A stretch of 33,133 nt of DNA from Flammeovirgaceae bacterium BBD 1991-12 (lineage in GTDB: Bacteria > Bacteroidota > Bacteroidia > Cytophagales > Cyclobacteriaceae): positions 10,632 to 43,764 of the forward strand of contig LYSV01000117.1 of NCBI GenBank assembly GCA_001657315.1, read 5' to 3'. How positions within the stretch are numbered: position 1 is the stretch's first letter; each line of letters starts with the position of its first letter. A program made the translations under genes and the position numbers. The notes beneath the pieces are model-generated. The model was not told where the DNA came from. It did not search any database and was given only the letters and a program-made list of their open reading frames with translations. Positions 6,900 to 26,862 of this stretch are shown in pieces.

Positions 6900-7008
6900 G
6901 ATTTTCTGAAAGTTGGTCACTATCCGATTTTTCGATAGCCTCAGGTCCAAACTATTTTCCACCTGAAAAACACGGTTATGCTGCGATGTACACTTCTCAG
7001 AAATACAT
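6900..7008 (+). repeat. Direct repeat copy A: remnant of aminotransferase promoter and first codons
   Basis: This stretch aligns with 26752-26862. It includes a 26-nt identical block (6908-6933 with 26760-26785) and a second well-kept block around ACCTGAAAAA and CACGGTTATGCT. Up to 6985 I count 11 mismatches and one 2-nt gap over about 86 positions. The ATG at 6978 begins codons for MLRCTLLRN, matching MLRRTLLKK of the intact gene, and similarity then fades. The tiny frame ends at 7067. The -7-like TAGCTTGA of the intact copy is degraded here to TAGCCTCA. It is best read as a dead 5' remnant of the aminotransferase locus. Confidence 0.75.
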
Positions 7009-7017
7009 GCAACTCTA

Positions 7018-7047
7018 TTGCATTTATCAAATGTACATTTATATTTG
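7018..7047 (+). promoter_or_regulatory. Bacteroidetes-type promoter of the TonB receptor gene
   Basis: TTG at 7018-7020, a 19-nt spacer, then TATATTTG at 7040-7047, an exact TAnnTTTG match. The predicted start near 7054 gives a leader of about 118 nt before the ATG at 7172. The promoter begins only about 10 nt beyond the recognisable end of direct repeat copy A. Confidence 0.55.
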
Positions 7048-7171
7048 TATGGATAAAAGTAGTATAAGCAGTTGGCTACTGGTATAACCCGGTTACTTTC
7101 TTCCATAGTCCCCTGAATGCCCTTTGCGCGACCGATTACAATGCCTGCCAGGGTTTAGTATTTACCCAGAA

Positions 7172-9553
7172 ATGAGCGTTTCAAAAACCTTTTATTTCAT
7201 TTTGGCACTGTCATGTATTGGAATCCGTACATTAGCCCAACATGATCAGCATGCAATAAGTGGAATCATCAAAGGGGTTACCGGGGAAGCCTTACCCGGG
7301 GCTATTATACGGGTACAGGCACTTCAGAAAGGTGATGCAGCTGATCAGAAGGGCGCATACAATATTGACGGCTTAAGCAGTGGGACTTATCAATTGCAGG
7401 TAACCCATATCGGCTATGAGACGAATGTCAGAACCATCATCATATCCGGAAGCAGCCTTACTGAAAATTTTGTACTTATCCCCTCATTATTTCAGTTGAA
7501 TGAAGTAGAGGTATCGGTCGATTTGTACCGATCCGGCCCAAAGGAACAGTCTATGACCATTCAGACAGTAGACCGTTCCTTCCTGGAAAAGAGCAATAGC
7601 AATACTCTTGTGAATGCTCTGCAAAAAATACCCGGTATCAATGCCATCAATACCGGTGTAGGTATTGCCAAACCGGTGATCCGGGGAATGAGTTTTAACA
7701 GGGTCATCGTTACCAACCACAGTGTAAAGCAGGAAGGCCAGCAATGGGGGGCAGACCATGGATTGGAAATTGACCAGTATTCCCCTGAAAGGGTGGAAAT
7801 CATCAAGGGCCCTTCTTCCCTGCTTTATGGCTCGGATGGTCTGGGAGGTGTAATCAACATATTACCTGCACCACTACCGCTGTCCAATACTTTGAGCGGC
7901 AGCTTTCTCGGTGCTTACAAAAGCAATAACAACCTATACGGCACATCTACCATGCTTCAGGGCAATAAAGATGGAAAGCTGTTCCGGCTCCGGTTTTCCA
8001 CCCAGGATTTCGGTGACTACCAGGTGCCTGCCGATAGCTTTACCTACAACCGCTTTGTTTTGCCTATTTATGACCGCGCTTTGAAAAACACTGCTGGCAA
8101 AGAAAGAAATGTAACCGCTATGGCAGGCATTGCCAAAGAATGGGGGCACATCACCATTACGGTCAGCAACTTTCATCAAAAGGCAGGTTTCTTCTCGGGT
8201 GCATTAGGGATTCCCAGGGAATATCAACTAACCAGTGACGGAAATTCCCGAAACATAGACCTACCCCGACAGGTAACCAACCATTTTAAAATAGTTGCCA
8301 ATACCAATATCAATTTCAACGAGGGTTGGCTGGAGCTTGACGTGGGCTATCAGAATAATTACCGCAGAGAAGAGTCCAGCCCTCATGCCCACGGAAAAGG
8401 ACCAAGACCGGAAGGAACACTGGCTTTAGGGCTCACCTTACAGACATTTTCAGTCAATGCAAAATATCATCATCAGATGAATGAAAGGCTCAAAAGCATC
8501 TACGGTTTTCAGGCTCAATACCAGAAAAACGAAAGGAGTGGGTTTGAATTCCTATTATCGGACTTTACTTCAGGAACTGCGGGAGCTTTCCTATATCAAG
8601 AGTACACACTCAATAAAAACACCACCATCAATGGTGGGATACGGTTTGACCATGGCTTTCGGAACATAGAAAGATTTGTGGAACCGGTTTACACGGATAC
8701 TACAACCATTAGCGGGTATAACGAAAGGACCGGGCAGGTAGCAAGACAATTTTCCAATTTGTCGGGGGCAACGGGTATTTCCTTTTATCCCGGCAGTAAT
8801 TTTAATGCGAAACTTAACCTTGGAACCAGTTTCCGTATGCCCACAGCTCCTGAACTTTCTTCCAATGGTATTCATCACGGCACTTTCAGGCACGAATTCG
8901 GAGATAGTACCCTAACTACAGAAAGAGGTTGGCAAGTGGATTTAAACCTAACCTATCATACAAAGGACTTTCATGCCAGCGTGACACCGTTCTACAATTA
9001 CTTCACCCAATTCATATATCTGGGTCCAACTTCTCAATTCTCCACCTTGCCGGAAGGCGGGCAAATTTATCGCTATACGCAGGATGATGCAATTTTTGCA
9101 GGGGGTGAGGCATCGGTGGAATACCATGTGGTAGAAGAACTTCAGCTTAAAACTGCCATGGAATATGTATGGAACTACAACCTAAATAGTGGCTTAGCAC
9201 TTCCTTTTACACCCCCCCTCTCTGTATTAGGGGAAGTGGAATATAGCCTGCCTCTTGGCAAAAGTTCTTTTTCTGATGTTTTCTTTGGGATCTTTGTTCA
9301 ACATTTTGCTGCCCAGAATCGGGTGGACCGGAACGAGCAGACCACTCCAGGCTATACGCTTATCAATTTTTCATCAGGCTTTGATCTAAAAATAAAGAAT
9401 CTGCCATTAGAGCTTATGTTCTCTATTCAGAATATCGCCAACAATAAATACCTGAACCACATGAGCCGATACCGGCTCCTGAACCTGCCGGAACAGGGCA
9501 GAAATTTTAATGTTACCATGAGATTGCCTTTCACATGGACAGATGTAAACTGA
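7172..9553 (+). CDS. TonB-dependent outer-membrane receptor, ZnuD-like
   Basis: A 793-residue outer-membrane importer. Order: signal peptide (about residues 1-23, ending TLAQ), a carboxypeptidase-regulatory-like beta-sandwich domain (about 29-110, with GEALPGAIIRVQ and HIGYET), a plug domain (about 120-240) and a 22-strand-type barrel ending in Met-Arg-Leu-Pro-Phe-Thr-Trp. The plug block KPVIRGMSFNRVIVTNHSVK followed by EGQQWGADHGLEID closely resembles ZnuD zinc receptors, and the first external region holds the His-rich SSPHAHGKGP; zinc or another metal is therefore the best guess for the cargo. I start at the ATG at 7172 because it opens the signal peptide; an upstream in-frame start at 7124 would spoil it. 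It converges with a DUF4625-type lipoprotein, a frequent neighbour. Confidence 0.82.
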   Translation: MSVSKTFYFILALSCIGIRTLAQHDQHAISGIIKGVTGEALPGAIIRVQALQKGDAADQKGAYNIDGLSSGTYQLQVTHIGYETNVRTIIISGSSLTENFVLIPSLFQLNEVEVSVDLYRSGPKEQSMTIQTVDRSFLEKSNSNTLVNALQKIPGINAINTGVGIAKPVIRGMSFNRVIVTNHSVKQEGQQWGADHGLEIDQYSPERVEIIKGPSSLLYGSDGLGGVINILPAPLPLSNTLSGSFLGAYKSNNNLYGTSTMLQGNKDGKLFRLRFSTQDFGDYQVPADSFTYNRFVLPIYDRALKNTAGKERNVTAMAGIAKEWGHITITVSNFHQKAGFFSGALGIPREYQLTSDGNSRNIDLPRQVTNHFKIVANTNINFNEGWLELDVGYQNNYRREESSPHAHGKGPRPEGTLALGLTLQTFSVNAKYHHQMNERLKSIYGFQAQYQKNERSGFEFLLSDFTSGTAGAFLYQEYTLNKNTTINGGIRFDHGFRNIERFVEPVYTDTTTISGYNERTGQVARQFSNLSGATGISFYPGSNFNAKLNLGTSFRMPTAPELSSNGIHHGTFRHEFGDSTLTTERGWQVDLNLTYHTKDFHASVTPFYNYFTQFIYLGPTSQFSTLPEGGQIYRYTQDDAIFAGGEASVEYHVVEELQLKTAMEYVWNYNLNSGLALPFTPPLSVLGEVEYSLPLGKSSFSDVFFGIFVQHFAAQNRVDRNEQTTPGYTLINFSSGFDLKIKNLPLELMFSIQNIANNKYLNHMSRYRLLNLPEQGRNFNVTMRLPFTWTDVN

Positions 9554-9598
9554 TTTAGAAGTAATTTATTCGAAGTATCACCCCAGAGCCTGAACGAA

Positions 9599-10414
9599 CT
9601 AGTTGAAATCTACCTCTATCACTTTCTCTGACGAATTATTATAAGTATCGTAAGTTTTAACCCTGAACGTATGCTTACCACTGACAGCAGAAGATGGTAC
9701 GGTAAACTTCAGATCAAAATCAGCTTCTTTTCCTGATGCTTCCGAAAAAAACTCCTGAAGGGGGAAAAACTCCGTGCCTTCAGGGTCAGTGTAAGTAATT
9801 TCTATTTTGCCATTAGCTATTGAGTAATTGTCAGACACCGTACCTCTGAAGGTTAAATCGTTACCTTTAGCAACGGATACTGACGCTGAAGATGGTTCAG
9901 TGAGTGATAATACCGGGGGCACATTATCTATGGAATTTTCAACCTTTATGCTATAAATCAGAGGAGTAGCTTCGTTTCCTAGTGCATCCAGGCATAAGAT
10001 CTGCAGGTGATAATCCCCGGCCAAAGCATCCTCGGGAACAGGCAGGACCTCTTCCACGGCAACCGTTTGGCCAGTGATATTTTCTATTTTCAGCAACTGC
10101 CAGGCAGATGCCGCTATCCTTCCGTGGGAATGGCAATCAAAGTTGTTATGGATATCCACCTTGTATTGAGACAAATTGCGGTTGTCGGAAAATTGCAGGT
10201 TTAAGACGATCTCGCTGCCCGTCTGAACATTGATGACATTGGTTTCCTTTACCTTACAAATTATTCCTTCCGTAGCAACCGGGCTTGATGCCAACATATT
10301 AATCTGGGGCTTTAGTACATCCGGGCCGTCATCCGTTGCGCTGTCTTCGGTACAGGCAAACCCTGTAAAGGCAAAGGTTATTGATATATAAAACGCCTTT
10401 CTACAGTTTTTCAT
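9599..10414 (-). CDS. DUF4625-type lipoprotein
   Basis: A 271-residue secreted protein with a lipobox: the hydrophobic N-terminus ends in TGFAC, so Cys would be lipidated and the protein membrane-anchored. Two Ig-like halves follow. The first holds the DUF4625 signature NLSQYKVDIHNNFDCHSHG with its His-rich tip, then DYHLQILCLDALGNEA; the second repeats the pattern with DNYSIANGKIEI and GKHTFRVKTYDTYNNSSE. The start at 10414 (MKNCRKAF) places the signal peptide correctly; the frame is open further to 10465. DUF4625 proteins often sit beside TonB receptors in Bacteroidota, and the His cluster suits a metal-capture helper for the ZnuD-like receptor, but that role is inference. Confidence 0.75.
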   Translation of the reverse strand: MKNCRKAFYISITFAFTGFACTEDSATDDGPDVLKPQINMLASSPVATEGIICKVKETNVINVQTGSEIVLNLQFSDNRNLSQYKVDIHNNFDCHSHGRIAASAWQLLKIENITGQTVAVEEVLPVPEDALAGDYHLQILCLDALGNEATPLIYSIKVENSIDNVPPVLSLTEPSSASVSVAKGNDLTFRGTVSDNYSIANGKIEITYTDPEGTEFFPLQEFFSEASGKEADFDLKFTVPSSAVSGKHTFRVKTYDTYNNSSEKVIEVDFN

Positions 10415-10566
10415 AGTATTTTGGTTTTGTCTTTTAAATCTATTCTTTAGCATTTCGCCGGACAAGGACTAACGCTAAAACTTACATTCCTCTTCGTTAA
10501 TGCTTCTATTCTGGAGTAATACCACCGTATGCAGTATTTCCATCGTACCGGATTGCTACTGATGGG

Positions 10567-12249
10567 TCAAAAAAGATTATTGAAATCTACCTTTGATTGC
10601 TTCTCGTACAGAATATTGTTGCACCAAACAAAATTGACCCTACCCCACCGGGTAGCACTATAGACATCGGGGAAAAATCCGCTACCTTTTAGGTTAGCAC
10701 TAGTGTTGCACAGCAGCGGTATCCCGGAAATTGATTCGTAGGCTTTAAGCAATGAATAAATTACGCGGTTTTGTGCTGAAGTTACGGTTTGCAGACGTGC
10801 TGAACCATCAACATGACATATAGCAGGCACCCTATCCTGCCACTCTTTTCGTACACTATGGCTAAAGAGCATAAAGGGATCGTGCCCCCCCGGCTGGAAA
10901 ACCTCACCGGACTTTTCCTCCAGACAAATAGGAGCGATCGGCCGGTACGGTTCCCGGTACTTGATAGTGTTGAGTATATGCCTGGCCCAGCTACTTGTAG
11001 CGGCCATCAGGATACTTCTGTTTCCCAATGCCCGGGGGCCTAGTTCTGCCCTACCATTAAGAAGAATAACAGGCTCATTACTGTCATGCACAATCTTAGC
11101 CAGATCGGAAATTGTACATTGTTTTTTCTTCCAACCAGCGTAAGGTTCATTGATGATAACCTCACTTCCACCGTAGACACTCCAGGTAGTATGAGGTAAT
11201 GTTTCTTTACTTCGGGTAGCTATCCCACAGATAGCTGCACCTACAGCGCTGCCAGAATCGTTTGGGAATGGAGGTATCCATATTTCCTTAAATAATCCGA
11301 TGCCTCGTAACACGCTGTTCCACTTGATATTCAATGCGGCACCCCCTGAATAGCATAGGTTGAAGCATTTGTTGGAATGCTTGCTAATCTTATCGATTAA
11401 AGACGAAACAAGTAAGTCCCCGAGATAGTGATGGAAGGAAGTAATGATATCCTCATCACTAAAATCTTTCTCTTTTGTCAACTGCTTGAATTCGCGGGTG
11501 AACCTGTAGGGAAATACCGGAATGCATTCAATACTCATTGCCTGAGATAGTAGCGAATTGTACACTGTCTGTAGGTCATCTCGTATTGCTGGCACATTGT
11601 TACCGTATGCTGTATAAGCCATCACTTTACCCGCTACCGACAGTTCATCCTTGATGACGTTTTCGTTTATTTTAAAGGGCCCAAAGTGCTGAGCAAATAC
11701 GGAATAGGCGTTGACTCCCAGGAAAAAGACAGGGCCTAGATTCACCAGCTCAGCACTCGATGCATCGAGGAAGTATAACCGGGGAAACATACCACCATCC
11801 CACACGAGTATATACGAATTCTCCCCCCGCTGCGCAAAAGGGCTGGTACTGTAAGCCCCTGCAATATGCCCGGCTACGTGCTGGTAACTTTCGTAGTGAA
11901 TCAGGCTCTGGTTAAACAGAGCTGATTGGAACGGGTATCGTCGTAACACAGGCTCTAATAAGCACGCTTCATGATACGGAGCTACCGAAAGAGTAACATC
12001 TTGTTTACCAATGAATGTATTGACCTGCGAAGGTACCAATCCCTTCCAACCATCGATGCAAAACAAATCTATATCCTGGTAATCATAACCTTCCTCCGCC
12101 AGTATGCCTGGTATCATTTGCAGATCATCCAGTATCTTGTAGCGATTGTTGTTACCGATCTTCTCAAGCTCAATATTGGCAATAAGCCTGGTATCCTCGA
12201 AGATAGCGACGGCACTGTCGTGCGTCAATTTAAGACCGCAGGTTACCAT
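10567..12249 (-). CDS. Carbamoyltransferase of the NodU/CmcH/TobZ family
   Basis: A 560-residue cytoplasmic enzyme of the family that transfers a carbamoyl group from carbamoyl phosphate, through an adenylate, to a hydroxyl of a sugar, antibiotic or other small molecule. The N-terminal half has the Kae1-like fold: CGLKLTHDSAVAIFED with His10, the metal-binding pair His124/His128 in YQHVAGHIAGAYSTSPF, and Asp151 in LVWDGG. The glycine-rich LCYSGGAALNIKWN and PNDSGSAVGAA follow. The C-terminal YrdC-like part has GRAELGPRALGNRSIL (about residues 399-414) and KYREPYRPIAP, both hallmarks. The gene stands alone between DUF4625 and a DinB-like gene, with no sugar or polyketide genes beside it. The acceptor is unknown; a link to the lanthipeptide cluster 4.7 kb away is only a possibility. 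Confidence 0.85.
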   Translation of the reverse strand: MVTCGLKLTHDSAVAIFEDTRLIANIELEKIGNNNRYKILDDLQMIPGILAEEGYDYQDIDLFCIDGWKGLVPSQVNTFIGKQDVTLSVAPYHEACLLEPVLRRYPFQSALFNQSLIHYESYQHVAGHIAGAYSTSPFAQRGENSYILVWDGGMFPRLYFLDASSAELVNLGPVFFLGVNAYSVFAQHFGPFKINENVIKDELSVAGKVMAYTAYGNNVPAIRDDLQTVYNSLLSQAMSIECIPVFPYRFTREFKQLTKEKDFSDEDIITSFHHYLGDLLVSSLIDKISKHSNKCFNLCYSGGAALNIKWNSVLRGIGLFKEIWIPPFPNDSGSAVGAAICGIATRSKETLPHTTWSVYGGSEVIINEPYAGWKKKQCTISDLAKIVHDSNEPVILLNGRAELGPRALGNRSILMAATSSWARHILNTIKYREPYRPIAPICLEEKSGEVFQPGGHDPFMLFSHSVRKEWQDRVPAICHVDGSARLQTVTSAQNRVIYSLLKAYESISGIPLLCNTSANLKGSGFFPDVYSATRWGRVNFVWCNNILYEKQSKVDFNNLF

Positions 12250-12317
12250 AATACATATAGGTTAAGGGTAATTCAATAGAGGTTCGCCCGCTTCATTTTT
12301 AGGGTTCCTGAACACCA

Positions 12318-12325
12318 CAAAGGTA
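12318..12325 (-). promoter_or_regulatory. Possible -7 box of the carbamoyltransferase promoter
   Basis: Read leftwards, TACCTTTG matches TAnnTTTG exactly and lies about 70 nt before the start codon at 12249. No clear -33 box is seen at the usual distance. Confidence 0.4.
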
Positions 12326-12385
12326 AAGCTTTCCCCTGCAACGAGATGGTCTTTCCCCAAAACTTCACCTACTTTTTATTTAATT

Positions 12386-12823: not shown

Positions 12824-12932
12824 TGCTACAAGATGACCTATTTGAGGGGTGAAGCCATTTACTTCAGTGATAAGATACTAACTACTCACATTATGTAAAC
12901 TTTCTTCCTACATTTCTCCTATAACAAAAATC

Positions 12933-13883: not shown

Positions 13884-13899
13884 TTTATCAGAAAATAAC

Positions 13900-16867: not shown

Positions 16868-16898
16868 GAAAGTTAAAGCATAATATATTTTATTGCAA
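16868..16898 (-). promoter_or_regulatory. Predicted promoter of the lipoprotein/T9SS operon
   Basis: Read leftwards, TTG (16898-16896) is followed after 20 nt by TAACTTTC (16875-16868), seven of eight matches to TAnnTTTG. The TTG lies inside the GCAACA-A-TGTTGC palindrome. The same layout recurs before the lanthipeptide precursor gene. Confidence 0.4.
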
Positions 16899-16910
16899 CA
16901 ATGTTGCGTT
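16894..16910. promoter_or_regulatory. Palindromic element, copy 1 (GCAACA-A-TGTTGC)
   Basis: A perfect 6-bp inverted repeat with a one-base centre (16895-16907) within TGCAACAATGTTGCGTT. The 17-nt element recurs at 19239-19255 with a single mismatch, and both copies are preceded, 11 nt upstream of the palindrome's first base, by TATATTT. It lies between the divergent lipoprotein operon and the LanC-like gene, so a bound regulator could act on either. The protein that binds it is unknown. Confidence 0.55.
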
Positions 16911-16935: not shown

Positions 16936-18921
16936 TTGAAAAATTCAAAATTAAAGAGAGCAATCATAGAGGAAGTAAATTCATATGCACAATACCTTAT
17001 AGAAAATGCCATACCAGATCAAGAGGGGATATTCTGGGAAATTATGGACCATTCGAAAGGTGTCTTGAGAAATACTTCAAATGAAACAATCTACGAAGGA
17101 AGCACAGGAATTATTCTTTTTTTCATCAGCTTATACAACTACACAAGAGATCCCAGGTATTTGGATATCGCTTTAAAAGGAAGCAGATGGGTTGAAAATT
17201 ATATCATTAACCATCCCAAAGGATATCCTACTTTTTATACCGCAAGAACGGGAGTCATTTTTATGTTTTGCAAATTGTTCGAGGCCACTAAAGATGATAA
17301 ATACCTGAAAAAAGCAATGTCGACTACTGAAGCACTTGAAAAGGAGCTTTTGAGGAAAGACCTGTTCTATGATTTTTTTACAGGCATGGCAGGGAATATT
17401 TTTGTTGTAGCCTATTTGTATCACCATCTACCAAATCAATATTTGCTTGACCTTCTCATAAAATGCATTAAAAATTTAATTGAAGGTGCCCTGATTTCCA
17501 GGAAAGGGATCAAATGGGGTTACCGACCGAAAAATATTAATAGCCTTTGTGGTATATCACATGGCGCATCAGGCATTGCCCATGTTTTTTTACAAATTGG
17601 AAATTACTTCAACAATAATTCATTTTATTGGCTGGCGCATCAGGCCATTTTGTACGAATCTCAATATTTTGATCCCAATAAAAATAACTGGAAAGACTTA
17701 AGGCTACCTTTAGATGAAGTGAAAGCGGTGAAAGCTTTTACAGAGAATAATATAGAATATTTGACGGAAGGAAACAGACGGGATATAAATTTCTGGACAC
17801 ACGGAGCAGCAGGGATTGGACTGGTAAGGTTGGAAGCATCTCGTATTCTAAATAACAAGGGTTACTGGAAGGAGGCTGAATTAGCAATAAAAAAAACCAT
17901 TGAAACAGATATCAATGGAACAAATGGTGGCGACTATATTATATTACAGGGTAAAGCGGGGAATGCAGAGCTATTTTTAGAAGCTTATAACCATACAAAG
18001 GATCCGGTTTATCTTAGGTATGCTCAAAGTATAGCGGAAGAAATAATTTCCTATAAGAAAAAGCACCATACTTTTCCATCTATCAATAATATGAAAAACG
18101 GGCCCGCCCTCTTCTACGGAGATACAGGAATTGCTTATTTTTTATTGAGATCTTTAAACCCCACCCAGGTAGATTCCATTTTACTCCCCAGGGTCAGGAC
18201 GAATAACAAAAAGGAAAAATTATCTGGCCCGGAACACTTTAAGTGTTTTTCAGCAGGATCAATAAAAAATCAGGTGTTCGGGAAATATTTTGAACGAACT
18301 TTAAAATGTCTCGAAATGGCAGGAGCAGATGTTAATACAAAAGCAGGTGAACATACTTCATATAAAATTGATGATGAGTTAGATACCTGGATTGATGAAA
18401 TAAAAGTTCACATGGAAAATCTGGAAAAGAGCAAAAAAAAAGCTGTTAAAGAGATTTTTGATATGGAGTTCGATATTGTAAACTGCATACGCAAGGATAT
18501 GAGTTTTTTATACCTAAAAGCTGAAGATATCTTCCTCCAAAAAAAATATACCAAACAACTAGCGTTGGATAAAAATGATTTTTATGCCTTGAAGTGTAGA
18601 GTAGTGGAAGGGGTTTGGTTAAAAGAAAATACATGGCATTGGAATGATGAAGCTGATTATGCAAAAAACCTTGAAAGGGCTCCAGGCCGTTATCCTGTAG
18701 TTATAAAACGAACAGCCACTTACGCAAAAGAATATTATCTTAATACGTTAGGATACACACTCTTTAAGCATATAAATCCTGGTATTAGGGTATCTGAATT
18801 GATCAGATCTTCTCAGGGTCATTTAAGAAAACAATATAAAATTGATTCGTTGGATGTTCAGGATAAGCTGCTGGCTCAGCTAAAGGTTTTTCTTAAAGAA
18901 GGCATCGTAACAACCATTTAA
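16936..18921 (+). CDS. LanC-like protein without zinc ligands, with C-terminal extension (lanthipeptide cluster)
   Basis: A 661-residue protein. Residues about 30-405 form a LanC-type alpha/alpha toroid with seven G-x-x-G repeats, e.g. YEGSTGI, TGMAGN, GISHGASGIAHV (His209 matches the active-site His of LanC). The zinc site is gone: WTHGAAGIGLVRL has Thr288 where 'W-C-x-G' has Cys, and ILQGKAGN has Leu337-Gln338 where 'C-H-G' has Cys-His. Class III LanKC cyclases also lack these ligands. After a Lys/Glu-rich middle, the last 60 residues (602-661) read like a PqqD-type winged helix (LNTLGYTLFKHI, GIRVSELIRSS, LKVFLKEGIV). The start is TTG at 16936; the next Met is residue 37, too late for the fold. 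It is visibly AT-rich and is convergent with the precursor gene. Confidence 0.78.
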   Translation: MKNSKLKRAIIEEVNSYAQYLIENAIPDQEGIFWEIMDHSKGVLRNTSNETIYEGSTGIILFFISLYNYTRDPRYLDIALKGSRWVENYIINHPKGYPTFYTARTGVIFMFCKLFEATKDDKYLKKAMSTTEALEKELLRKDLFYDFFTGMAGNIFVVAYLYHHLPNQYLLDLLIKCIKNLIEGALISRKGIKWGYRPKNINSLCGISHGASGIAHVFLQIGNYFNNNSFYWLAHQAILYESQYFDPNKNNWKDLRLPLDEVKAVKAFTENNIEYLTEGNRRDINFWTHGAAGIGLVRLEASRILNNKGYWKEAELAIKKTIETDINGTNGGDYIILQGKAGNAELFLEAYNHTKDPVYLRYAQSIAEEIISYKKKHHTFPSINNMKNGPALFYGDTGIAYFLLRSLNPTQVDSILLPRVRTNNKKEKLSGPEHFKCFSAGSIKNQVFGKYFERTLKCLEMAGADVNTKAGEHTSYKIDDELDTWIDEIKVHMENLEKSKKKAVKEIFDMEFDIVNCIRKDMSFLYLKAEDIFLQKKYTKQLALDKNDFYALKCRVVEGVWLKENTWHWNDEADYAKNLERAPGRYPVVIKRTATYAKEYYLNTLGYTLFKHINPGIRVSELIRSSQGHLRKQYKIDSLDVQDKLLAQLKVFLKEGIVTTI

Positions 18922-18954: not shown

Positions 18955-19149
18955 TTAGAATTCGATTGTTGTTGCGCATCCACACTGTTTAGGGTGCAGC
19001 GGATCACTGGGCTCAGTATGAGTAGGATGTGACGGATCTATGTGCAGTCCGCCCATCACATTTTTTTCCACTTCTGAGTCTAAACTGGTAACGAAGCTTT
19101 GCACTTGCAAATCCTCAAGGTTTAATTTTTCTTTTTTTGAATTTTTCAT
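18955..19149 (-). CDS. Lanthipeptide precursor, pinensin-like, with double-glycine leader
   Basis: A 64-residue precursor peptide. The leader (1-34) begins MKNSKKEKLNLEDLQVQSFV and continues TSLD; the L-x-(V/L)-x-SFVTSL block is the hallmark of Bacteroidota pinensin-type class I lanthipeptide leaders. It ends in VMGG, a double-glycine site for the C39 peptidase encoded next door. The core (35-64) is Pro/His-rich: four upstream dehydratable residues (Ser40, Thr43, Thr45, Ser48), then Cys56-Gly-Cys58, then Thr60-Thr61. Two thioether rings are possible, each from an upstream Ser/Thr to a Cys. I chose the ATG at 19149 because the leader motif begins there; an in-frame ATG at 19194 would add 15 unconserved residues. 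It lies on the strand opposite to the cluster's other genes. Confidence 0.82.
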   Translation of the reverse strand: MKNSKKEKLNLEDLQVQSFVTSLDSEVEKNVMGGLHIDPSHPTHTEPSDPLHPKQCGCATTIEF

Positions 19150-19211: not shown

Positions 19212-19212
19212 T

Positions 19213-19243
19213 TAAATTTAAAAAAACATATATTTAAATGCAA
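19213..19243 (-). promoter_or_regulatory. Predicted promoter of the lanthipeptide precursor gene
   Basis: Read leftwards: TTG (19243-19241), 20-nt spacer, TAAATTTA (19220-19213), seven of eight matches to TAnnTTTG. Transcription would begin near 19206, leaving a leader of about 57 nt. The -33 TTG lies inside palindrome copy 2, exactly as in the lipoprotein/T9SS operon promoter. Confidence 0.45.
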
Positions 19244-19255
19244 CAATGTTGTGTT
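19239..19255. promoter_or_regulatory. Palindromic element, copy 2 (GCAACA-A-TGTTGT)
   Basis: TGCAACAATGTTGTGTT matches copy 1 (16894-16910) at 16 of 17 positions; the inverted repeat is 5 of 6 here. It sits between the divergent precursor and exporter genes. For the exporter it would lie about 50-60 nt upstream of the predicted start, an activator-like position. Confidence 0.55.
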
Positions 19256-19288: not shown

Positions 19289-19296
19289 TAAATTTG
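19289..19296 (+). promoter_or_regulatory. -7 box of the exporter operon promoter
   Basis: TAAATTTG is an exact TAnnTTTG match, with a predicted start near 19303 and a leader of about 22 nt before the ATG at 19325. The -33 region is weak, consistent with a need for an activator. Confidence 0.5.
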
Positions 19297-19324
19297 GGAA
19301 TCCTTATACAGGGTTTTATCAAGG

Positions 19325-21517
19325 ATGAAAAAGTTTCCCTTCTATAAGCAGCTTGATAGAAAAGACTGTGGCCCCACCTGCCTTCGCATGATAGCCCGGT
19401 ACTATGGGAAAATATATTCTTTGGAACGGCTGAGGGAAAACAGCTATATAAGTCGGGAAGGTGTTTCACTGGCCGGAATTTGTGATGCTGCTGAATCCAT
19501 TGGTTTTAGAACGCTTTCGGCTAAAATCCCCTACGAAAAGCTAAAACAGGAAGTTCCTCTTCCATTTATTGCCCCCTGGCGGGGGCGACATTTTATTGTA
19601 GTGTACAGTTTTAAAAAGGAGTCAGTTTTAGCAGCAGATCCTGCCTATGGCCTGATCAGCTATTCTAAAAAGGAATTTCTGGAAGGTTGGCTTAATTATA
19701 CCAGCAATGGCGAAAACAGGGGCATTGTATTACTTTTAGAACCTACTCCTGATTTTTATAAAGCAGAAGATGATAGTCAGCTCAAAAAGAATAATTTTAA
19801 ATTTTTATTCTCTTACCTGGAGCCTTATAAAAGATACGTAGTTCAACTGGTTTTGGCATTATTGACCGGTAATGTACTCTTGCTGCTGTTCCCCTTTCTT
19901 ACGCAGGCAATTGTAGATGTAGGGATAAGCCAACAGGATATTGGCTTTATAAATTTAATTCTAATAGCCCACATTATGCTGTTTCTTAGCAGAACAGCAA
20001 TAGATTTTATCAGAAGTTGGATATTGCTGCATATAAGCACGCGGGTCAATATTTTTATCATTTCTGATTTCCTGATAAAGTTAATGAAGCTCCCCCTGTC
20101 TTTTTTTGACAGTAAGATGATCGGGGACTTACTGCAACGAATAGGCGATCATCAGCGGATAGAACTGTTCCTTACTTCAACCACCTTAAATATCCTTTTT
20201 TCGTTTTTTAGCCTTATTATTTTCGGTGCTGTCCTGGCTTACTATGATCTCACCATTTTTGGCATATTCTTTTTGGGAAGTCTGTTATATGCTGGTTGGA
20301 TCGTCCTTTTTTTAGAAAAAAGAAAAATCCTGGACTATAAACTTTTTGACCAGACCGCACAAAATCGCAGTCATTTGATTCAACTTATTTCCGGTATACA
20401 AGAGATACGACTTCACAATGCGGAAAGACAGAAACGCTGGGAATGGGAAAGGATTCAGGCAAAACTGTTTAGGGTGAGCATTAAAAATCTATCCCTTAAC
20501 CAATACCAACAAATAGGGTCAGCATTTATAAATGAATTGAAGAATATCTTCATCACCTTTTGGGCTGCAAAATCAGTGATAGACGGAGATATTACCTTAG
20601 GGATGATGTTGGCTGTCCAATACATAATCGGACAACTCAATACGCCCATAAATCAAATGATCGGATTCGTTCATTCTGCGCAAGATGCAAGACTAAGCCT
20701 GGAAAGAATGGGAGAGATCCATAATAAAGAGGATGAAGAAACCCAGGGAGAAAGTAAAGTCTCTATTTTTCCGGAAAACAGATCATTGTCTATAAAAGAC
20801 CTCAGCTTCCAGTATGAGGGGCCTCATTCACCGAAAGTGCTCAGAAATATCAATATGCATATCCCTGAAGGAAAGATCACTGCAATTGTCGGGGCAAGCG
20901 GTAGCGGGAAAACTACTTTAGTCAAATTGTTGCTAAAAATATACAACCCTGATCAGGGTGAAATAAAATTAGGAGATATAAACCTTGCCAATTTCAGTAA
21001 CAAGTTATGGAGAAGTAAATGTGGCTCTGTCTTGCAGGATGGGTATATTTTTTCGGATACCATAGCCAAAAATATTTTGATCAATGGTGAGCAGTTAGAC
21101 CAGGAAAAATTAATTTATTCGGTAAAAGTGGCCAATATACAGGAGTTTATCGAATCCTTGCCGCTTGGCTACAATACGATGATCGGCATGGATGGTCACG
21201 GCTTAAGCCAGGGGCAAAAGCAGCGGATCCTTATTGCCCGGGCGGTATACAAGAATCCGGAATATATCTTTTTCGATGAAGCAACCAATGCTTTGGATGC
21301 CAACAATGAAAAGATAATTATGGAGAACCTGGACAGGTTCTTTCAGGGTAGAACAGTAGTTATCGTCGCCCACAGACTCAGTACAGTAAAAAATGCAGAC
21401 CAGATCATTGTCCTGGACAAAGGGGAGGTCATTGAGGTGGGGACTCATCTTAAGTTAACCCAGGAAAGAGGAGCCTACTTTCATCTTGTCAGGAATCAGT
21501 TAGAATTAGGTAATTAA
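19325..21517 (+). CDS. Peptidase-containing ABC exporter (C39 bacteriocin-type)
   Basis: A 730-residue inner-membrane transporter that removes double-glycine leaders and exports the peptide. Residues 1-130 are a C39 peptidase with the full catalytic set: Gln9, Cys15 (DCGPTCLRM), His89 (GRHFIVVYSF) and Asp105 (AADPAYG). A six-helix ABC membrane domain follows (about 155-440), then the ATPase (about 485-730): Walker A GASGSGKTTL with Lys529, Q-loop VLQDGYIF, signature LSQGQKQR, Walker B YIFFDEATNALD and the switch His in VAHRLSTV. It leads the operon with the HlyD adaptor (12-nt gap) and the split dehydratase. Its obvious substrate is the VMGG-leader precursor encoded divergently next to it. 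Confidence 0.93.
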   Translation: MKKFPFYKQLDRKDCGPTCLRMIARYYGKIYSLERLRENSYISREGVSLAGICDAAESIGFRTLSAKIPYEKLKQEVPLPFIAPWRGRHFIVVYSFKKESVLAADPAYGLISYSKKEFLEGWLNYTSNGENRGIVLLLEPTPDFYKAEDDSQLKKNNFKFLFSYLEPYKRYVVQLVLALLTGNVLLLLFPFLTQAIVDVGISQQDIGFINLILIAHIMLFLSRTAIDFIRSWILLHISTRVNIFIISDFLIKLMKLPLSFFDSKMIGDLLQRIGDHQRIELFLTSTTLNILFSFFSLIIFGAVLAYYDLTIFGIFFLGSLLYAGWIVLFLEKRKILDYKLFDQTAQNRSHLIQLISGIQEIRLHNAERQKRWEWERIQAKLFRVSIKNLSLNQYQQIGSAFINELKNIFITFWAAKSVIDGDITLGMMLAVQYIIGQLNTPINQMIGFVHSAQDARLSLERMGEIHNKEDEETQGESKVSIFPENRSLSIKDLSFQYEGPHSPKVLRNINMHIPEGKITAIVGASGSGKTTLVKLLLKIYNPDQGEIKLGDINLANFSNKLWRSKCGSVLQDGYIFSDTIAKNILINGEQLDQEKLIYSVKVANIQEFIESLPLGYNTMIGMDGHGLSQGQKQRILIARAVYKNPEYIFFDEATNALDANNEKIIMENLDRFFQGRTVVIVAHRLSTVKNADQIIVLDKGEVIEVGTHLKLTQERGAYFHLVRNQLELGN

Positions 21518-21529
21518 AATCACCAAGCT

Positions 21530-22825
21530 ATGCCTCAAAGCAACGATATAGAAATACGTAGTGAAGAAGTACAGGAAATACTTACCCGGATTCCTGGATG
21601 GATCGTCAGATGGGGCATCACTGTGATTTTTATTACAGTAGGACTGCTCCTGCTGGCAAGCTGGTTTATAAAATATCCTGACACCATTTCTGCCAATGTG
21701 GTTTTGACAACCCAAACGCCACCAGTGGAAATGATTGCTCGTTCCAGTGGAAGGTTAAATTTTTTTGTAAAGGATTATGAGGAGGTAAAAGAAGGGGAAT
21801 TTCTTGCGCTGATAGAAAACCCTTCCCATGCTGACGATATTTTCTATCTGATAAGTAAACTGGAAGAGATAAAAAAAACCGAATTCTCTCAAAAAGAAAT
21901 TCTACACCCCGATTCATTTAAGGTAAATCTCGAGCTGGGCCAGTTACAAGACAACTATGTAGAATTTAGAAATGCACTAAGGGATTATGCCCTCTTTCAG
22001 CAACTGAACCTCTACGAAAAACAGATGGAGGCTATCCAGTCAAGAATCAACAGCTACAGGCAACTGAACCTGCAACTGGAAAAACAAAACGCAATAGTCA
22101 CACAGGAACTTGCCTTGTCAAAAAGAAAATACAACATAGATTCCGTGCTTTTCAATCAGAAAGTAATTGCGGATCTTGATTTTGACCAGTCAAAAAATAG
22201 TTATCTGCAAACAAAGCGGGTGTTTGAATCTGCCCGTTCTGATATTATCAACAACCAGATATTAGCATCAGGGCTGAAAGCACAGGTGCTCGAGCTCAGC
22301 ATAGAACAGCAGAAAAAAGAAGACGACCTGAAAAACGCAATAAGAGATGCCTACAAAAGACTGGAGAGCCAACTGTCGGCCTGGGAAGAGCAGTATTTAC
22401 TGGAGGCACCCTTAGATGGGAAAGTTGCCTTTTTAAAGTACTGGAGTGATAATCAGTATGTAAAGGAAGGGGAGGAAGTAATGACTATTATCCCTTATTC
22501 ACAAGATGTATTGGGCCAGGTGCTTATGCCCATCTCCGGCTCGGGAAAAGTAGAAGTAGGGCAACGGGTAAATATCAGGTTTGATAACTATCCTTCCAAT
22601 GAGTACGGCATGGTCATAGGAAAAGTGGAATCTGTAGGGCTCTTACCCCGGGACAATATGTATTCCATACGGATAAGCCTGCCCCAGGGACTAATAACCA
22701 GCTATGGAAAAAAGCTGGAATTCAGGCAGGAAATGCAGGGAAGTGCTGAAATCGTCACCAGGGATATGCGGCTGATAGGAAGGATATTTAACCAATTCAG
22801 GACGTTGATGGACAGGGCAAACTAA
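21530..22825 (+). CDS. HlyD-family membrane-fusion protein of the lanthipeptide exporter
   Basis: A 431-residue periplasmic adaptor anchored by one N-terminal helix (about residues 25-47, WIVRWGITVIFITVGLLLLA). Next come a lipoyl/biotinyl-like half (EMIARSSGRLNFFVKDYEEV then KEGEFLALIENP), a long alpha-helical hairpin of coiled-coil type (about 105-285), the second lipoyl half (EAPLDGKVAFLKYWSDNQYV then KEGEEVMTI) and a beta-barrel domain (VGQRVNIRFDNYPSNEYGMV). In type I-like export it bridges the ABC exporter to an outer-membrane channel; no TolC-like gene is present here, so one encoded elsewhere is presumably used. It starts 12 nt after the exporter gene, in the same operon. Confidence 0.88.
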   Translation: MPQSNDIEIRSEEVQEILTRIPGWIVRWGITVIFITVGLLLLASWFIKYPDTISANVVLTTQTPPVEMIARSSGRLNFFVKDYEEVKEGEFLALIENPSHADDIFYLISKLEEIKKTEFSQKEILHPDSFKVNLELGQLQDNYVEFRNALRDYALFQQLNLYEKQMEAIQSRINSYRQLNLQLEKQNAIVTQELALSKRKYNIDSVLFNQKVIADLDFDQSKNSYLQTKRVFESARSDIINNQILASGLKAQVLELSIEQQKKEDDLKNAIRDAYKRLESQLSAWEEQYLLEAPLDGKVAFLKYWSDNQYVKEGEEVMTIIPYSQDVLGQVLMPISGSGKVEVGQRVNIRFDNYPSNEYGMVIGKVESVGLLPRDNMYSIRISLPQGLITSYGKKLEFRQEMQGSAEIVTRDMRLIGRIFNQFRTLMDRAN

Positions 22826-22877
22826 GAATAGCAGAATAGTATAGATAGAGAATCAACTTTTCAACCTTACGTTACAG

Positions 22878-25733
22878 GTGAACATTTTCCCCCATATTTT
22901 ATGCAGAATAGGCGGTGGCTCTTTCGATGAGTTTTCAGAGGCTATATACTTCCCTGCCTTGCAGGAGATAATCACCAAACAGGTGCACTTACATCATGAA
23001 AAAGAAAGTGTAAAACTGGCATTTAGTGAACGACTCAGAAAATTCATTGAACAGGAACAAAACGCCAAAACACAGAATCTGCTACAAAATTTCCGGAGAG
23101 ATATCTACAATGACAGAAACAGGGGTACAAAAGATAAAACCATACAGGAAATACGGAAAATAATTCCTGCGGAATTATTCAAGGAATTAGACAATTATCT
23201 GTTGATTCTTGATAAGTATAAAAACCTGGTGAATAAAGGCGAAGTGGTTTATGAACAGGAAAGGATAAAAAGCAGAAACAACCTCAAAGTACTGTCGCTA
23301 AAAGACAACTTACAAAAAGGGCTTTTGCTATCAAGCCATGCGCTACTGGATCAAATACCAAAGTATGCAGGTAAGTCAGCGGAAGAATTTACAAAAAAAG
23401 AGATCAAAACCGAACGCAGCCTATTACAATACCTGACAAGGATCTATACCAAAACCTCCCCTTTTAGTAGTTTTACTAATCTTGCCATAGGAAAAACAGC
23501 ATACAAGCCTGATGAAATCGTAAGGATCAACTCGCTAACAGGCAACAAAGAGGCCGTTGACAGCCATGTCCGCCTGAATAATTATTTGTTTAAGTACCTT
23601 AAAATTTTACTCATCCATTACAGGCCTGTTTATCTGGAGCTGTATATAAGGCCCAATCCTACTTTAGAGAATAAGGGAGATTATTTTCACTACCTGACCA
23701 ATAATCATAATCTGGAATCTTTTCAGCAGATCTCGGCAAATCCTGTTTTGTCCTTGTTACTGACCTTGTCAGGAGAACGTAAAGAAGGGAAAAAGTTCAT
23801 ATCGTTGATTGAAGATGCGGCAGGCCATGTGAATGCATCGGAAGACGAAGTGGAAAAATATATTCAACAATTGTTAAAATATGGGTTTCTGGAATATGAT
23901 TTTCAGGTTTCGGGTCTTGATCCCGATTGGGATGTGAAAATGGCGACTATGCTACAGTCAATGGCAAAAAAGAACACACCAATCATAACAGAGCTTATCC
24001 AAACCCTTGTTCATATCAGGGAGTTGATGCGGCAATATCAGGTAGCTACTGTAACCGCTCGTAAGAAGATATTAGCAGAAGCCTATACAAATTTTAGAAG
24101 CGCCTGTTTTAAAATTCATGAAGCTGCGGGTTTACCGCCAGAAGAACGGGTCCTCAACAAAAAAGGCAGTCATTCCAAAAAGGCAAAGGAGGAAACTGAT
24201 GATTCAGCAGAAGTAAAAGAAAAACCAGCTGCATTCACTCATGAGAGCAGGACTGAATTTTTATTCAGGCCAGAGCAAATATTTTATGAAGACACTGTAC
24301 GTGCCATAAATGTCCTACTTGATAAAGACCACCTGCAAACTTTTATGGGCAAATTAAATGACCTGCTACAAGGGTTAAGGCTATTCAAAGGGGGTACAGA
24401 TGAGAAATATAAAATGCAGGATTATTTTGTTGAGAAGTATGGGATCCCCGGAAGTGCCCGTGTGCTTGATTTTTACCAGGACTATTATAAAGATGTAAAA
24501 AAGCCTGAACTTACCCTTCAGGAGGAGCGGAAGAAAATGCCTCAGGCACTAAAAGACAAAGAATTTGCCCTTAATGAAGCTCTTCAACCAAAGGAATTTA
24601 CAAAAGATACTGCCGTTCCTGCCATTGTGAGAAGGCAGCAAAAAGCTAAAGACTGGCACAAGCAGTTTGCAGAAAATTTACCAGTTGATCCTGGGGAGGA
24701 AGTTTTATTGAACCAGGACTTCATAAAGAATAACCACCTTTTCCAGGGCCTGGGATACAACGGTTCAAATTCATTCGGTGCCTTTATCCAATTTTACAAG
24801 GAAAAGGATAAAAAGGGAAACGACATCCTCAAAGGTGTATTGAACACATCATTTCCAGGCTACGGAAAAATGGTGAGCCGCTTCCTGCACATTTTTGATC
24901 AACAACTAAGCGGTGATATACGGAGCTGGAACTTAAAATTATCGGATGGGAAGCTAATGGTGGAAAACTGTGACGCCTCTTACTTCAATGCCAATATACA
25001 CCCCAGCCTAATGCCTTATGAGATCCGCATGCCTGGGGCGAATAATATGCATTCCAGTGAAAAACAACTTCCCGTCAGGGATTTTGAACTATGCCTGGAT
25101 AAAAAGGATCAGGAATTAAAGTTATTTCATAAACCGAGTGGTAAGGAAGGCTACGTCTTTGATCTGGGATTTCAATCGAGCAGCGGGCGTTCCAGGCTAT
25201 TCCAGTTACTGAGTCAGTTTACCAAATCCGAATATTTGCATGTCTATCCCGTAGTGGACGCAGTAAATACTACATCCGGCAAATCTGATAGCAACGAGGA
25301 CAAAAAGGAACAGGTAAGAATTCTCCCCAGGATTGTGTATGAAGATCAGATCATACTGCAAAGAAAAAGCTGGTTGATCCCCAAAACGCTGCTATTAAGC
25401 AGAAAAAACGGTGAAACAGATTCGGGATTTTACTTCCGGATGAATATATGGAGAAAATGCCATGACATTCCGGATGAGGTCTTTGTATTTATCGTTCCGG
25501 CAGCGGAATATTCGGAGGTGAAAGGGAAGCTTCAAAAGCCAGGTAATGACGATTATAAACCACAGTATATTAATTTCAATAATCCTCTACTGGTTAATCT
25601 GTTGGAAAAGTTGATAAATAAAGTGCCTGAAAGCTTAAAGGTCCAGGAAATGCTGCCTGCCCCCCAACAGATGCTGCATATTGAGGGACGTAAGTTTGTA
25701 TCCGAATTTATGGTTCAGTGGTATAATTATTGA
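22878..25733 (+). CDS. Lantibiotic dehydratase, N-terminal (glutamylation) half of a split LanB
   Basis: A 951-residue cytoplasmic enzyme matching the LanB N-terminal domain, which uses Glu-tRNA to glutamylate Ser/Thr of the precursor. Recognisable parts are the opening ILCRIGGGSFDEF (the 'llR-x-P' strand), RSLLQYLTRIYTKTSPFSSF from residue 180, SHVRLNNYLFKYL and the C-terminal-side RIVYEDQIILQRKSW and FVFIVPAA. A charged low-complexity linker (about residues 430-460, KKGSHSKKAKEETDD) is inserted. The elimination domain is absent and is encoded by the next gene, the split known for pinensins. The start is GTG at 22878; homology begins within 10 residues of it. It lies 52 nt after the HlyD gene. 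Confidence 0.85.
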   Translation: MNIFPHILCRIGGGSFDEFSEAIYFPALQEIITKQVHLHHEKESVKLAFSERLRKFIEQEQNAKTQNLLQNFRRDIYNDRNRGTKDKTIQEIRKIIPAELFKELDNYLLILDKYKNLVNKGEVVYEQERIKSRNNLKVLSLKDNLQKGLLLSSHALLDQIPKYAGKSAEEFTKKEIKTERSLLQYLTRIYTKTSPFSSFTNLAIGKTAYKPDEIVRINSLTGNKEAVDSHVRLNNYLFKYLKILLIHYRPVYLELYIRPNPTLENKGDYFHYLTNNHNLESFQQISANPVLSLLLTLSGERKEGKKFISLIEDAAGHVNASEDEVEKYIQQLLKYGFLEYDFQVSGLDPDWDVKMATMLQSMAKKNTPIITELIQTLVHIRELMRQYQVATVTARKKILAEAYTNFRSACFKIHEAAGLPPEERVLNKKGSHSKKAKEETDDSAEVKEKPAAFTHESRTEFLFRPEQIFYEDTVRAINVLLDKDHLQTFMGKLNDLLQGLRLFKGGTDEKYKMQDYFVEKYGIPGSARVLDFYQDYYKDVKKPELTLQEERKKMPQALKDKEFALNEALQPKEFTKDTAVPAIVRRQQKAKDWHKQFAENLPVDPGEEVLLNQDFIKNNHLFQGLGYNGSNSFGAFIQFYKEKDKKGNDILKGVLNTSFPGYGKMVSRFLHIFDQQLSGDIRSWNLKLSDGKLMVENCDASYFNANIHPSLMPYEIRMPGANNMHSSEKQLPVRDFELCLDKKDQELKLFHKPSGKEGYVFDLGFQSSSGRSRLFQLLSQFTKSEYLHVYPVVDAVNTTSGKSDSNEDKKEQVRILPRIVYEDQIILQRKSWLIPKTLLLSRKNGETDSGFYFRMNIWRKCHDIPDEVFVFIVPAAEYSEVKGKLQKPGNDDYKPQYINFNNPLLVNLLEKLINKVPESLKVQEMLPAPQQMLHIEGRKFVSEFMVQWYNY

Positions 25734-26740
25734 TAAGTGATCAGGAGCAAATGAAAGAATGGCTGAGTGTTCATTTATATTATGCAGAACCATGGGAAGG
25801 ATTTTTATCCAATGATATTGCCCCATTTGTAGAAAAAATGGTAGATGATCATCTGGCTGAAGCGTATTTTTTTATTCGCTACTGGCATAAGGGGCCACAC
25901 ATCAGGTTAAGGATAAAAAGCAAAAGCATCAACACTAACAGGTTGCAAAACCTGGTTTCCGCTTATTTCGAGAAGTTCTTTATAGAAAATCCCTCCCACC
26001 CAATCAATAGCCTGGATACTGAAAACCCGGAAAAAGCAGAAGTTGATGCAGCCCGGCTCCCAAACAACAGCTTCCATTTTATACCTTATCATCGCGAAAC
26101 CGAAAGGTATGGAGGAGAAGCCGCCATAGCCATTGCAGAAAGGCAATTTGGAGTTTCTTCCAGAGTAGTCTTGTCTATCATTAAAGAATGCGAAGCATGG
26201 AATTATAATAAAGCATTGGGAAAGGCCATGTATTTACATTTAGCATTTGCTTACGCAACGGACATGAGCTTAGCTGAAGCTGCATTGTTTTTTAACAGGA
26301 TCTTTGAGATCTGGTTGCCGAGAACATCCACATCAGAAGAGGCCTTTTATAAAAATAAAGATGTAGTGCTTAAAGCTTTTCGTGAAAATTACGAGGCACA
26401 GAAAGTATCTATCTTACCTCTTTTTGAGAAGTTATGGCTGGCGATGAAGAATGATTCAGAGTTTGAGCAAAACTGGCTAATGGATTGGATTTCAGATACA
26501 AAACAAATAAGAAAAGACCTCTGCCAAATCCAAAGCGAGAAAAAATTCATTATGCCAAAATGGTTTACGATCGATCATACGTCAGCTGTGGATATTTCCC
26601 ATCAGGAAAGATGGGCTGTATATGGTAGTTACATTCACATGACCAACAACCGCCTTGGAATATTGAACAGAGATGAGGGATACCTGGGGTATGTTATGAT
26701 GCATGGCTTCTCTCATTTAAAGGAGCACTATAGCTTATAG
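25730..26740 (+). CDS. LanB C-terminal (elimination) half, thiopeptide-type bacteriocin biosynthesis domain
   Basis: A 336-residue protein of the SpaB_C / thiopeptide-type family, the lyase half of class I lanthipeptide dehydratases: it removes glutamate from glutamylated Ser/Thr to leave dehydroalanine or dehydrobutyrine. Family landmarks are WLSVHLYYAEPWEGFL at the N-terminus, AYFFIRYWHKGPHIRLRIKS (Arg/His-rich active-site strand, about residues 46-65), YHRETERYGGEAAIAIAERQ (about 122-141, with the conserved R-Y-G-G) and HMTNNRLGI near the end. The start taken is TTG at 25730, whose codon overlaps the preceding TGA and suggests translational coupling; ATG at 25751 (MKEWLSV) is a fair alternative. 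It closes the exporter-dehydratase operon. Confidence 0.85.
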   Translation: MISDQEQMKEWLSVHLYYAEPWEGFLSNDIAPFVEKMVDDHLAEAYFFIRYWHKGPHIRLRIKSKSINTNRLQNLVSAYFEKFFIENPSHPINSLDTENPEKAEVDAARLPNNSFHFIPYHRETERYGGEAAIAIAERQFGVSSRVVLSIIKECEAWNYNKALGKAMYLHLAFAYATDMSLAEAALFFNRIFEIWLPRTSTSEEAFYKNKDVVLKAFRENYEAQKVSILPLFEKLWLAMKNDSEFEQNWLMDWISDTKQIRKDLCQIQSEKKFIMPKWFTIDHTSAVDISHQERWAVYGSYIHMTNNRLGILNRDEGYLGYVMMHGFSHLKEHYSL

Positions 26741-26751
26741 TAATCAAAACA

Positions 26752-26862
26752 GATTTTGCGAAAGTTGGTCACTATCCGATTTTTCAATAGCTTGAGATCA
26801 AAGCTCGTTTCCACCTGAAAAAAACACGGTTATGCTACGTCGTACGCTACTTAAAAAGATCG
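26752..26862 (+). repeat. Direct repeat copy B: intact promoter and first codons of the aminotransferase gene
   Basis: Matches 6900-7008 with a constant offset near 19,852 nt. It includes a TTGG at 26765-26768, a 19-nt spacer and TAGCTTGA (26788-26795), a weak Bacteroidetes-type promoter, and continues into the first ten codons of the aminotransferase gene. Together with copy A it brackets the accessory segment. Confidence 0.75.

Follow-up and report, generated by a model that had tools for sequence, protein, structure and literature searches.

Lanthipeptides have so far mainly been treated as antibiotics, and for many of the lanthipeptide clusters found in Bacteroidota we know of no role. 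Small-molecule zincophores are under Zur control; staphylopine and other opine types, coelibactin and ethylenediamine-disuccinic acid (EDDS) are secreted zinc chelators, and the known ones are opine, nonribosomal or aminocarboxylate products. In the open full-text literature, judged by its listings and with most subscription papers lying outside it, we found no paper that joins lanthipeptides to zinc starvation or to Zur. Clusters of the pinensin type, with a split LanB and double-glycine (GG) leaders accompanied by C39 proteases, are already known from the main texts of two genome-mining papers, in which the term 'TonB' does not occur (PMC7268733, PMC9248904). Here we analyse a stretch of 33,133 nucleotides (the window) from contig LYSV01000117.1 of Flammeovirgaceae bacterium BBD 1991-12 (genome G000), in which such a cluster lies between two copies of a direct repeat, R1 and R2, together with a TonB-dependent receptor, a DUF4625 protein and proteins sorted by the type IX secretion system (T9SS). 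Like the pinensin family as described in one of these main texts (PMC7268733), the cluster combines a pinensin leader, a split LanB, LanC and a GG leader with a C39 exporter; unlike that family, clusters of the window type are tied in five genomes to a receptor/DUF4625/T9SS module and to boxes of Zur type. We propose, with a probability of roughly 0.58, that what the repeats enclose is a cassette for zinc starvation that moves from one genomic place to another, the repeat being the scar of its insertion, and that zinc capture is its likeliest job.

The window proteins were compared with the loci around LanB homologues, which occur in 13 of 58 genomes (own genome included; surroundings were read in 12 of the 13, without G052), and with a second set of loci around homologues of the 316-residue T9SS protein (4 of 196 genomes of the family, again including the own one). 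A unit of receptor, DUF4625 protein, the T9SS proteins of 316 and 824 residues, C39 exporter, HlyD-type adaptor, both LanB parts and LanC recurs at unrelated loci in four further genomes (G013, G006, G051 and G327). The linked unit is therefore present in five genomes from three families of one order, with G051 and G327 belonging to families other than that of the window. As judged from these loci, the lanthipeptide genes, the T9SS operon and the receptor are one recurring, apparently zinc-controlled unit. The preliminary description of this DNA had called the region an accessory segment of about 20 kb; that part stands, but the segment is not a miscellany. Its internal order varies. LanC comes first in the window operon and last in the other cassettes; receptor and DUF4625 genes are opposed in the window and in G013 and run in the same direction in G006, G051 and G327, and in G327 the pair lies across the operon, on the precursor side. 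The 145-residue lipoprotein-like protein is matched in G013 and G006 and unmatched in G051 and G327. The carbamoyltransferase and the MST/DinB-like gene, for which the other four cassettes gave no match, look like separate additions. Homologues of the carbamoyltransferase occur in 5 of the 58 genomes (own included), and four stretches around them (two each from G027 and G023, with G009 and G016 outside this set) carry no other window gene except for a 22% ABC-transporter match, and the enzyme was rejected as a part of the system. No receptor module was found in the stretches read around nine other lanthipeptide clusters (G001, with a contig of only 7.9 kb, G002, G004, G007, G009, G014, G027, G033 and G522). 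Two observations concern single cassettes. At the end of the G013 cassette (L181, C70, 1-1531) lie partial transposase genes of the IS982 and IS1380 types, both below cut-offs. In G006 the N-terminal part of the receptor matches in a different frame from the rest (L207, 335-550 and 1-342), so this copy may be frameshifted.

All five cassettes carry a palindrome, TTGCAACANTGTTGCA, in promoters; it is missing from all nine lanthipeptide clusters without receptor module. The pattern was derived from the window, hence only other genomes are independent tests. At no more than 2 mismatches, the eight loci read for the four other cassettes (154 kb, overlaps counted) hold 12 sites, and every one of these cassettes has at least one in its exporter promoter; at least two of the sites in cassette loci (L212, 7501 and 14047) are unconnected to a cassette gene. 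There are 7 sites in the receptor-only loci (98 kb), 2 in eleven further loci (208 kb), 3 in the 80 aminotransferase loci (1.49 Mb; one of them, in a Dyadobacter, perfect) and 1 in a sample of the own genome (304 kb), located by a ZigA-like gene. No site was found in the nine module-free lanthipeptide clusters (162 kb) or in the four carbamoyltransferase loci (70 kb). Besides the boxes of Table 1, the window has a fourth site with 3 mismatches, at 10695, which lies within a gene and looks like chance.

The genes that neighbour the palindrome indicate its likely regulator. Over the whole own genome there are 35 strand hits at about 20 places, compared with 1 for the reversed control, and the neighbours were examined at 15 of these places. 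Three are clearly zinc-linked: one before a run of genes for MerC, a dCTP deaminase-like protein, ThrRS, FolE, a Fur-family protein, CysRS and a COG0523 protein (contig C2), one by a ZigA-like GTPase (C266; 552 bits, cut-off 600) and one before a ZIP transporter (C52). Three more, on C18, lie by a receptor (43% to that of the window) and a DUF4625 gene, and one is the window itself. The cassette shares this putative operator with zinc-homeostasis genes of its own genome, and ZIP, ZigA and the FolE/CysRS/ThrRS/COG0523 set are typical of Zur regulons. With boxes by ZIP, ZigA-like and MerC/FolE/COG0523-group genes, the palindrome is probably a Zur box, and zinc control of the cassette is, on these neighbourhoods, very likely. 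In the G051 locus a Fur-family gene and the precursor have a box between them, and the cassette adjoins genes for a ZigA-like protein (565 bits), a second COG0523 GTPase, a HisI-like protein and FolE; a Fur-family gene adjoins the receptor in G013, and FolE lies by the precursor in G006. For the Fur-family proteins of G051 and G013 the NCBI Zur model scores best, at 45 and 34.5 bits, far below its cut-off of 167. The run from MerC to COG0523 with its Zur-type boxes (L247, C2, 4542-12981) looks like a zinc-starvation operon. On C18 (L248, 6541-9906) the second receptor and DUF4625 gene stand with three boxes, and no window lanthipeptide gene was matched there. In G077 (L268, C18, 1911-9436) an ABC-transporter group is preceded by Zur-type boxes, and such boxes also lie at a MerC gene, which is followed by a His-rich lipoprotein-like open reading frame (ORF) and two binding-protein-like ORFs, the latter two named by eye.

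The precursor gene on the minus strand, which had been left unnamed before, encodes by its sequence a pinensin-family peptide. The leader matches the NCBIfam model leader_pinensin (NF038180) with 46 bits at a cut-off of 24, the precursors of the four relatives match it with 36-48 bits, and the split LanB plus LanC expected of the family are present (PF04738, PF14028 and PF05147); the likeness was established for leader and enzymes. The motif HPTHTExxD is kept in four of the five cores, the G327 core being different, and HETCTC is common to three. His/Cys counts are 4/2, 6/2, 3/2 and 3/2, with 3/4 in G327, and 2/6 and 1/7 in precursors of two module-free clusters. A profile built from three precursors gave seven matches in 390 genomes of the order, strong in the own genome and G051, weaker in G327 and over the leader in four; G006 and G013 gave none and were presumably outside this draw. 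For the receptor the best NCBIfam model is ZnuD (NF038289), with 138.1 bits far below the cut-off of 950, and the receptor is, in distinction to ZnuD, paired with a DUF4625 protein. The motif HxNFDCHxH of the latter is present in seven of seven readable homologues, one of the eight aligned rows having been dropped as out of frame.

These features can be combined into a model. Under zinc shortage a Fur-family repressor (Zur) would leave the TTGCAACANTGTTGCA-type palindromes in the cassette promoters, and with plentiful zinc the unit would be repressed. The pinensin-family precursor would be made, the split LanB and LanC would convert it to a lanthipeptide with His and Cys in its core, and the C39 transporter would trim and export the product; the ZnuD-like receptor, the DUF4625 protein with its HxNFDCHxH motif and two T9SS-secreted proteins would be made alongside. 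Outside the cell the peptide may bind zinc, and the DUF4625 protein and the receptor may return the zinc to the cell. From exporter, core and receptor we infer a candidate zincophore, controlled by Zur, exported, loaded with zinc and re-imported by the ZnuD-like receptor with DUF4625, in three families of one order. This role for the peptide is possible, and we hold it only tentatively.

Several observations weigh against a zinc-capture cassette. The boxes at 19238 and 7007 have 3 mismatches each, and G013 has a single site at no more than 2 mismatches, with 4 and 3 mismatches in the boxes before its precursor and receptor. In the own genome, five box places are found beside TonB receptors that belong to no zinc-specific type (three on C203, two on C2; best models haem/lactoferrin with 104 bits and ZnuD with 78 bits), one near a Fur-family gene scoring 84.5 bits (C2), one before a MacB-type ABC pair (C266; a CobW-family gene follows 4 kb on) and one, with 2 mismatches, before an LCIB-type carbonic-anhydrase-like gene (L252, C149, 5915-6717). 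The window receptor scores 131.5 bits with the haem model, nearly as much as with ZnuD, and in G051 and G327 the haem model scores best. Moreover, the Fur-family proteins near boxes of the own genome fit PerR (38.7) and Fur (84.5) best, not Zur. The palindrome could hence belong to another metal regulator and the cassette serve iron, haem or copper, as the near-equal receptor scores and the missing Zur assignment would allow. We consider this quite improbable in view of the own-genome boxes by ZIP, ZigA-like and FolE/CysRS/ThrRS/COG0523-group genes and of the ZigA-like, FolE and HisI-like neighbours of the G051 cassette. The main rival to zinc capture by the peptide accepts the zinc switch and changes the product: under zinc starvation the cell would make an antimicrobial or antifungal peptide as a weapon, while the receptor and the DUF4625 protein take up zinc independently. 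The main text of one paper credits pinensins, whose leader type the precursor shares, with activity against filamentous fungi and yeasts (PMC9248904). The receptor module, with boxes, was also seen in G077 and G189, where the stretches read hold no lanthipeptide genes; it can thus do without the peptide, and the own genome has the receptor-DUF4625 pair alone on C18. A weapon fits less well with the conservation of HPTHTExxD in four cores despite LanC proteins only 27-33% identical to that of the window, and with the distribution of the module, which adjoins all five clusters with precursors of this His-containing kind and none of the nine others read. We therefore regard the weapon as a serious but somewhat doubtful explanation, and zinc capture remains the job we prefer.

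The direct repeat next to dinB and at the aminotransferase start, on which the preliminary description was built, is confirmed. A repeat search of the window gives two arm pairs in the same orientation, 6895-6973/26747-26825 (85% identity) and 6966-7003/26820-26857 (82%), spaced by 19852-19854; BLASTN joins both arms with 82% over 111 columns (E 1.9e-25), and a gapped alignment extends over 6882-7004/26737-26858. The decayed first codons reported for R1, MLRCTLLRN against MLRRTLLKK, are present in this alignment, and the reported identity of about 85% over the promoter part agrees with 72 identical columns out of 85 in the intergenic part (11 substitutions, 2 gaps). A stretch of 26 bp is identical inside the diverged arms. 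The dinB start codon lies 11 bp from the beginning of R1, and R2 starts 6 bp past the stop of the last lanthipeptide gene. Thus, the repeat consists of the dinB-aminotransferase intergenic region and nine codons, and the outer genes of the cassette mark the limits of the DNA that the two copies enclose. Many further copies, which had been named as an observation that would speak against this history, are absent from the 8.59 Mb: the own assembly (8,586,047 bases, 282 contigs) has two significant copies only (E 5e-63 and 3.5e-24; the next, among the 19 matches listed, has E 0.98), which rules out a dispersed repeat. Among 15 genomes of the genus the repeat is confined to the own one, and BLASTN found it before no other aminotransferase in the loci compared, where upstream stretches were also read (L010 of G023 included, L013 and L014 excluded). 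The nine duplicated codons differ by 8 substitutions, 6 of them at third positions (hypergeometric P 0.006), a bias expected of two working genes that diverge and not of a pseudogene decaying from an identical duplicate. R1 therefore probably stems from the copy of a relative or from a second gene of old date. A target-site duplication that then decayed neutrally is disfavoured by this excess, in what is a small sample. Both copies look as if they had already diverged, each in a working gene, by the time R1 was truncated, eight changes being few.

The surroundings of the repeat are variable. Homologues of dinB were found in 2 of 58 genomes, the own one and G012 of the same genus, and among 196 family genomes in the own one only, G012 presumably being outside that draw; the aminotransferase has a 67% match in the metagenome-assembled genome Fulvivirga sp. 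PL25a_bin.63. In G012, 17.3 kb separate dinB (5595-6074, minus) from the aminotransferase (23385-24656, plus), and their orientation is that of the window. No gene of the window was found in the G012 interval, which encodes proteins of aldehyde dehydrogenase, Usp, phospholipase D, patatin and ABC1-kinase types; the ten proteins scanned with Pfam include no recombinase. A matching repeat around this interval was sought and rejected, the comparison of the dinB-upstream and aminotransferase-upstream sequences scoring 38, below the shuffled mean of 51, and no repeat pair brackets it in its first 15 kb. Within the interval (L041, C224, 9202-10028) lie direct repeats of 85-92% identity about 586 bp apart. 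On the left flank, PEPCK and an OPT transporter are common to the window, G012, G013 and G003; the gene after PEPCK is dinB in the own genome and G012 and another gene in G013 and G003. The right flank varies as well: the three genes following the aminotransferase were not found by that of G012, and for the gene at 30790-31983 none of the 14 other genomes of the genus gave a match at E <= 1e-100. The flanks and G012 thus support, at the level of gene order, a variable interval between a linked dinB/aminotransferase pair. Of the ancestral divergent pair that had been suggested as split by the insert, linkage and orientation hold in G012, but the two genes directly adjoin in none of the genomes searched. 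The dinB-aminotransferase junction without the segment, proposed as a check, was sought in 58 genomes, 196 family genomes and 80 aminotransferase loci (none of the 80 with dinB in view, some ending early at contig ends); it was not found, and a simple step from empty to full site is unproven. The proposed profile of guanine-plus-cytosine (GC) content gave a divided answer: the segment has 0.410, where 149 windows of 2 kb average 0.453 (sd 0.033). Only its lanthipeptide half is low (0.39), the receptor (0.450) and carbamoyltransferase (0.456) parts being near average, which makes low GC a weak sign of transfer.

We consider it probable that the segment was inserted between dinB and the aminotransferase with the repeat as its scar. 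The scar would probably have formed because the incoming DNA brought along the dinB-aminotransferase promoter and the gene start of a relative; in the own genome the cassette, with the added carbamoyltransferase and MST-like gene, would have been placed there. Weighing against an insertion are the lack of an empty site in the genomes searched and the small number of eight substitutions. The segment resembles genomic islands at gene 5' ends in its variable cargo, its flanking direct repeats and the whole target gene at one side, and differs in that its copies are only 82% identical, no empty site was found and the proteins scanned include no integrase. As the preliminary description had noted, no transposase or integrase occurs, here among 14 window proteins scanned with Pfam, small ORFs being outside the scan. 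R1 and R2 as attL and attR of a site-specific element that used the aminotransferase 5' end and lost its integrase would explain one repeat per boundary, the identical 26-bp core of the arms and the intact target gene. The empty integrase scan, the absence of a repeat pair around the different cargo of G012 (first 15 kb) and of further copies in the genus make such an element decidedly unlikely. R1 could also be the stump of a second, tandem aminotransferase deleted on arrival of all or part of the cassette, and the third-position bias suits two working genes. We hold this to be unlikely, since no other aminotransferase piece was matched in the compared stretches of the window's contig (C100:1-20000 and 36000-43764), where a short remnant could escape, and since the one other aminotransferase match in the own genome at E <= 1e-40 is 28% identical and on a different contig. 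Insertion with the repeat as scar is accordingly the route we favour.

The features between and around the repeats are collected in Table 1. Further to the left, at 2370-2507 and downstream of an SSS-type transporter gene, the window has an imperfect inverted repeat with TTATTGGGTTATT-type units.

Table 1. Features of the window around the candidate zinc-starvation cassette (positions in the window).
Feature	Position	Strand	Remarks
DinB_2-like protein, 161 aa	6398..6883	-	PF12867 23.6 bits, just below cut-off 24.8
R1	6895..7004	+	dinB-aminotransferase intergenic copy and nine decayed aminotransferase codons
Degenerate Zur-type palindrome, 3 mismatches	7007..7022	+	before receptor gene, three bases past R1
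ZnuD-like TonB-dependent receptor	7178..9553	+	Pfam; NCBIfam ZnuD 138 bits; 73% in G013
DUF4625 lipoprotein-like protein	9599..10465	-	PF15418 117 bits; HxNFDCHxH motif
NodU-type carbamoyltransferase	10567..12249	-	Pfam, NCBIfam; only in the own genome's cassette
MST/DinB-like protein, 145 aa	12386..12823	-	Pfam; only in the own genome's cassette
T9SS-sorted protein, 316 aa	12933..13883	-	homologues in 4/196 family genomes, own included
T9SS-sorted YCF48/BNR-repeat protein, 824 aa	13900..16374	-	Pfam, NCBIfam
Lipoprotein-like protein, 145 aa	16384..16821	-	no Pfam match; homologues in G013, G006, G189
Zur-type box TTGCAACAATGTTGCG	16893..16908	+	between divergent lipoprotein/T9SS operon and LanC
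LanC cyclase	16936..18921	+	PF05147
Precursor peptide, 64 aa, pinensin-type GG leader	18955..19149	-	leader/core MKNSKKEKLNLEDLQVQSFVTSLDSEVEKNVMGG/LHIDPSHPTHTEPSDPLHPKQCGCATTIEF
Zur-type box ATGCAACAATGTTGTG, 3 mismatches	19238..19253	+	between divergent precursor and exporter genes
C39-peptidase ABC exporter	19325..21517	+	Pfam
HlyD-type adaptor	21530..22825	+	Pfam
Split LanB, N-terminal (glutamylation) part	22878..25733	+	PF04738
Split LanB, C-terminal (elimination) part	25730..26740	+	PF14028
R2	26747..26858	+	matching sequence in functional position, upstream of the aminotransferase and reaching into it
Class-V aminotransferase, 423 aa	26832..28103	+	right flank; Pfam, homologue search

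A likely zinc-starvation operator and a co-travelling receptor of metal type give an orphan class of clusters a job that can be tested. Comparison of loci can reveal what was taken for an accessory segment as one system, and for genome miners it may be worthwhile to seek metal-uptake genes near clusters of ribosomally synthesized and post-translationally modified peptides (RiPPs). If the proposed role is true, it would be an unusual job for the lanthipeptide class: a ribosomal product would join the known zinc chelators, and a function would be offered for DUF4625 proteins.

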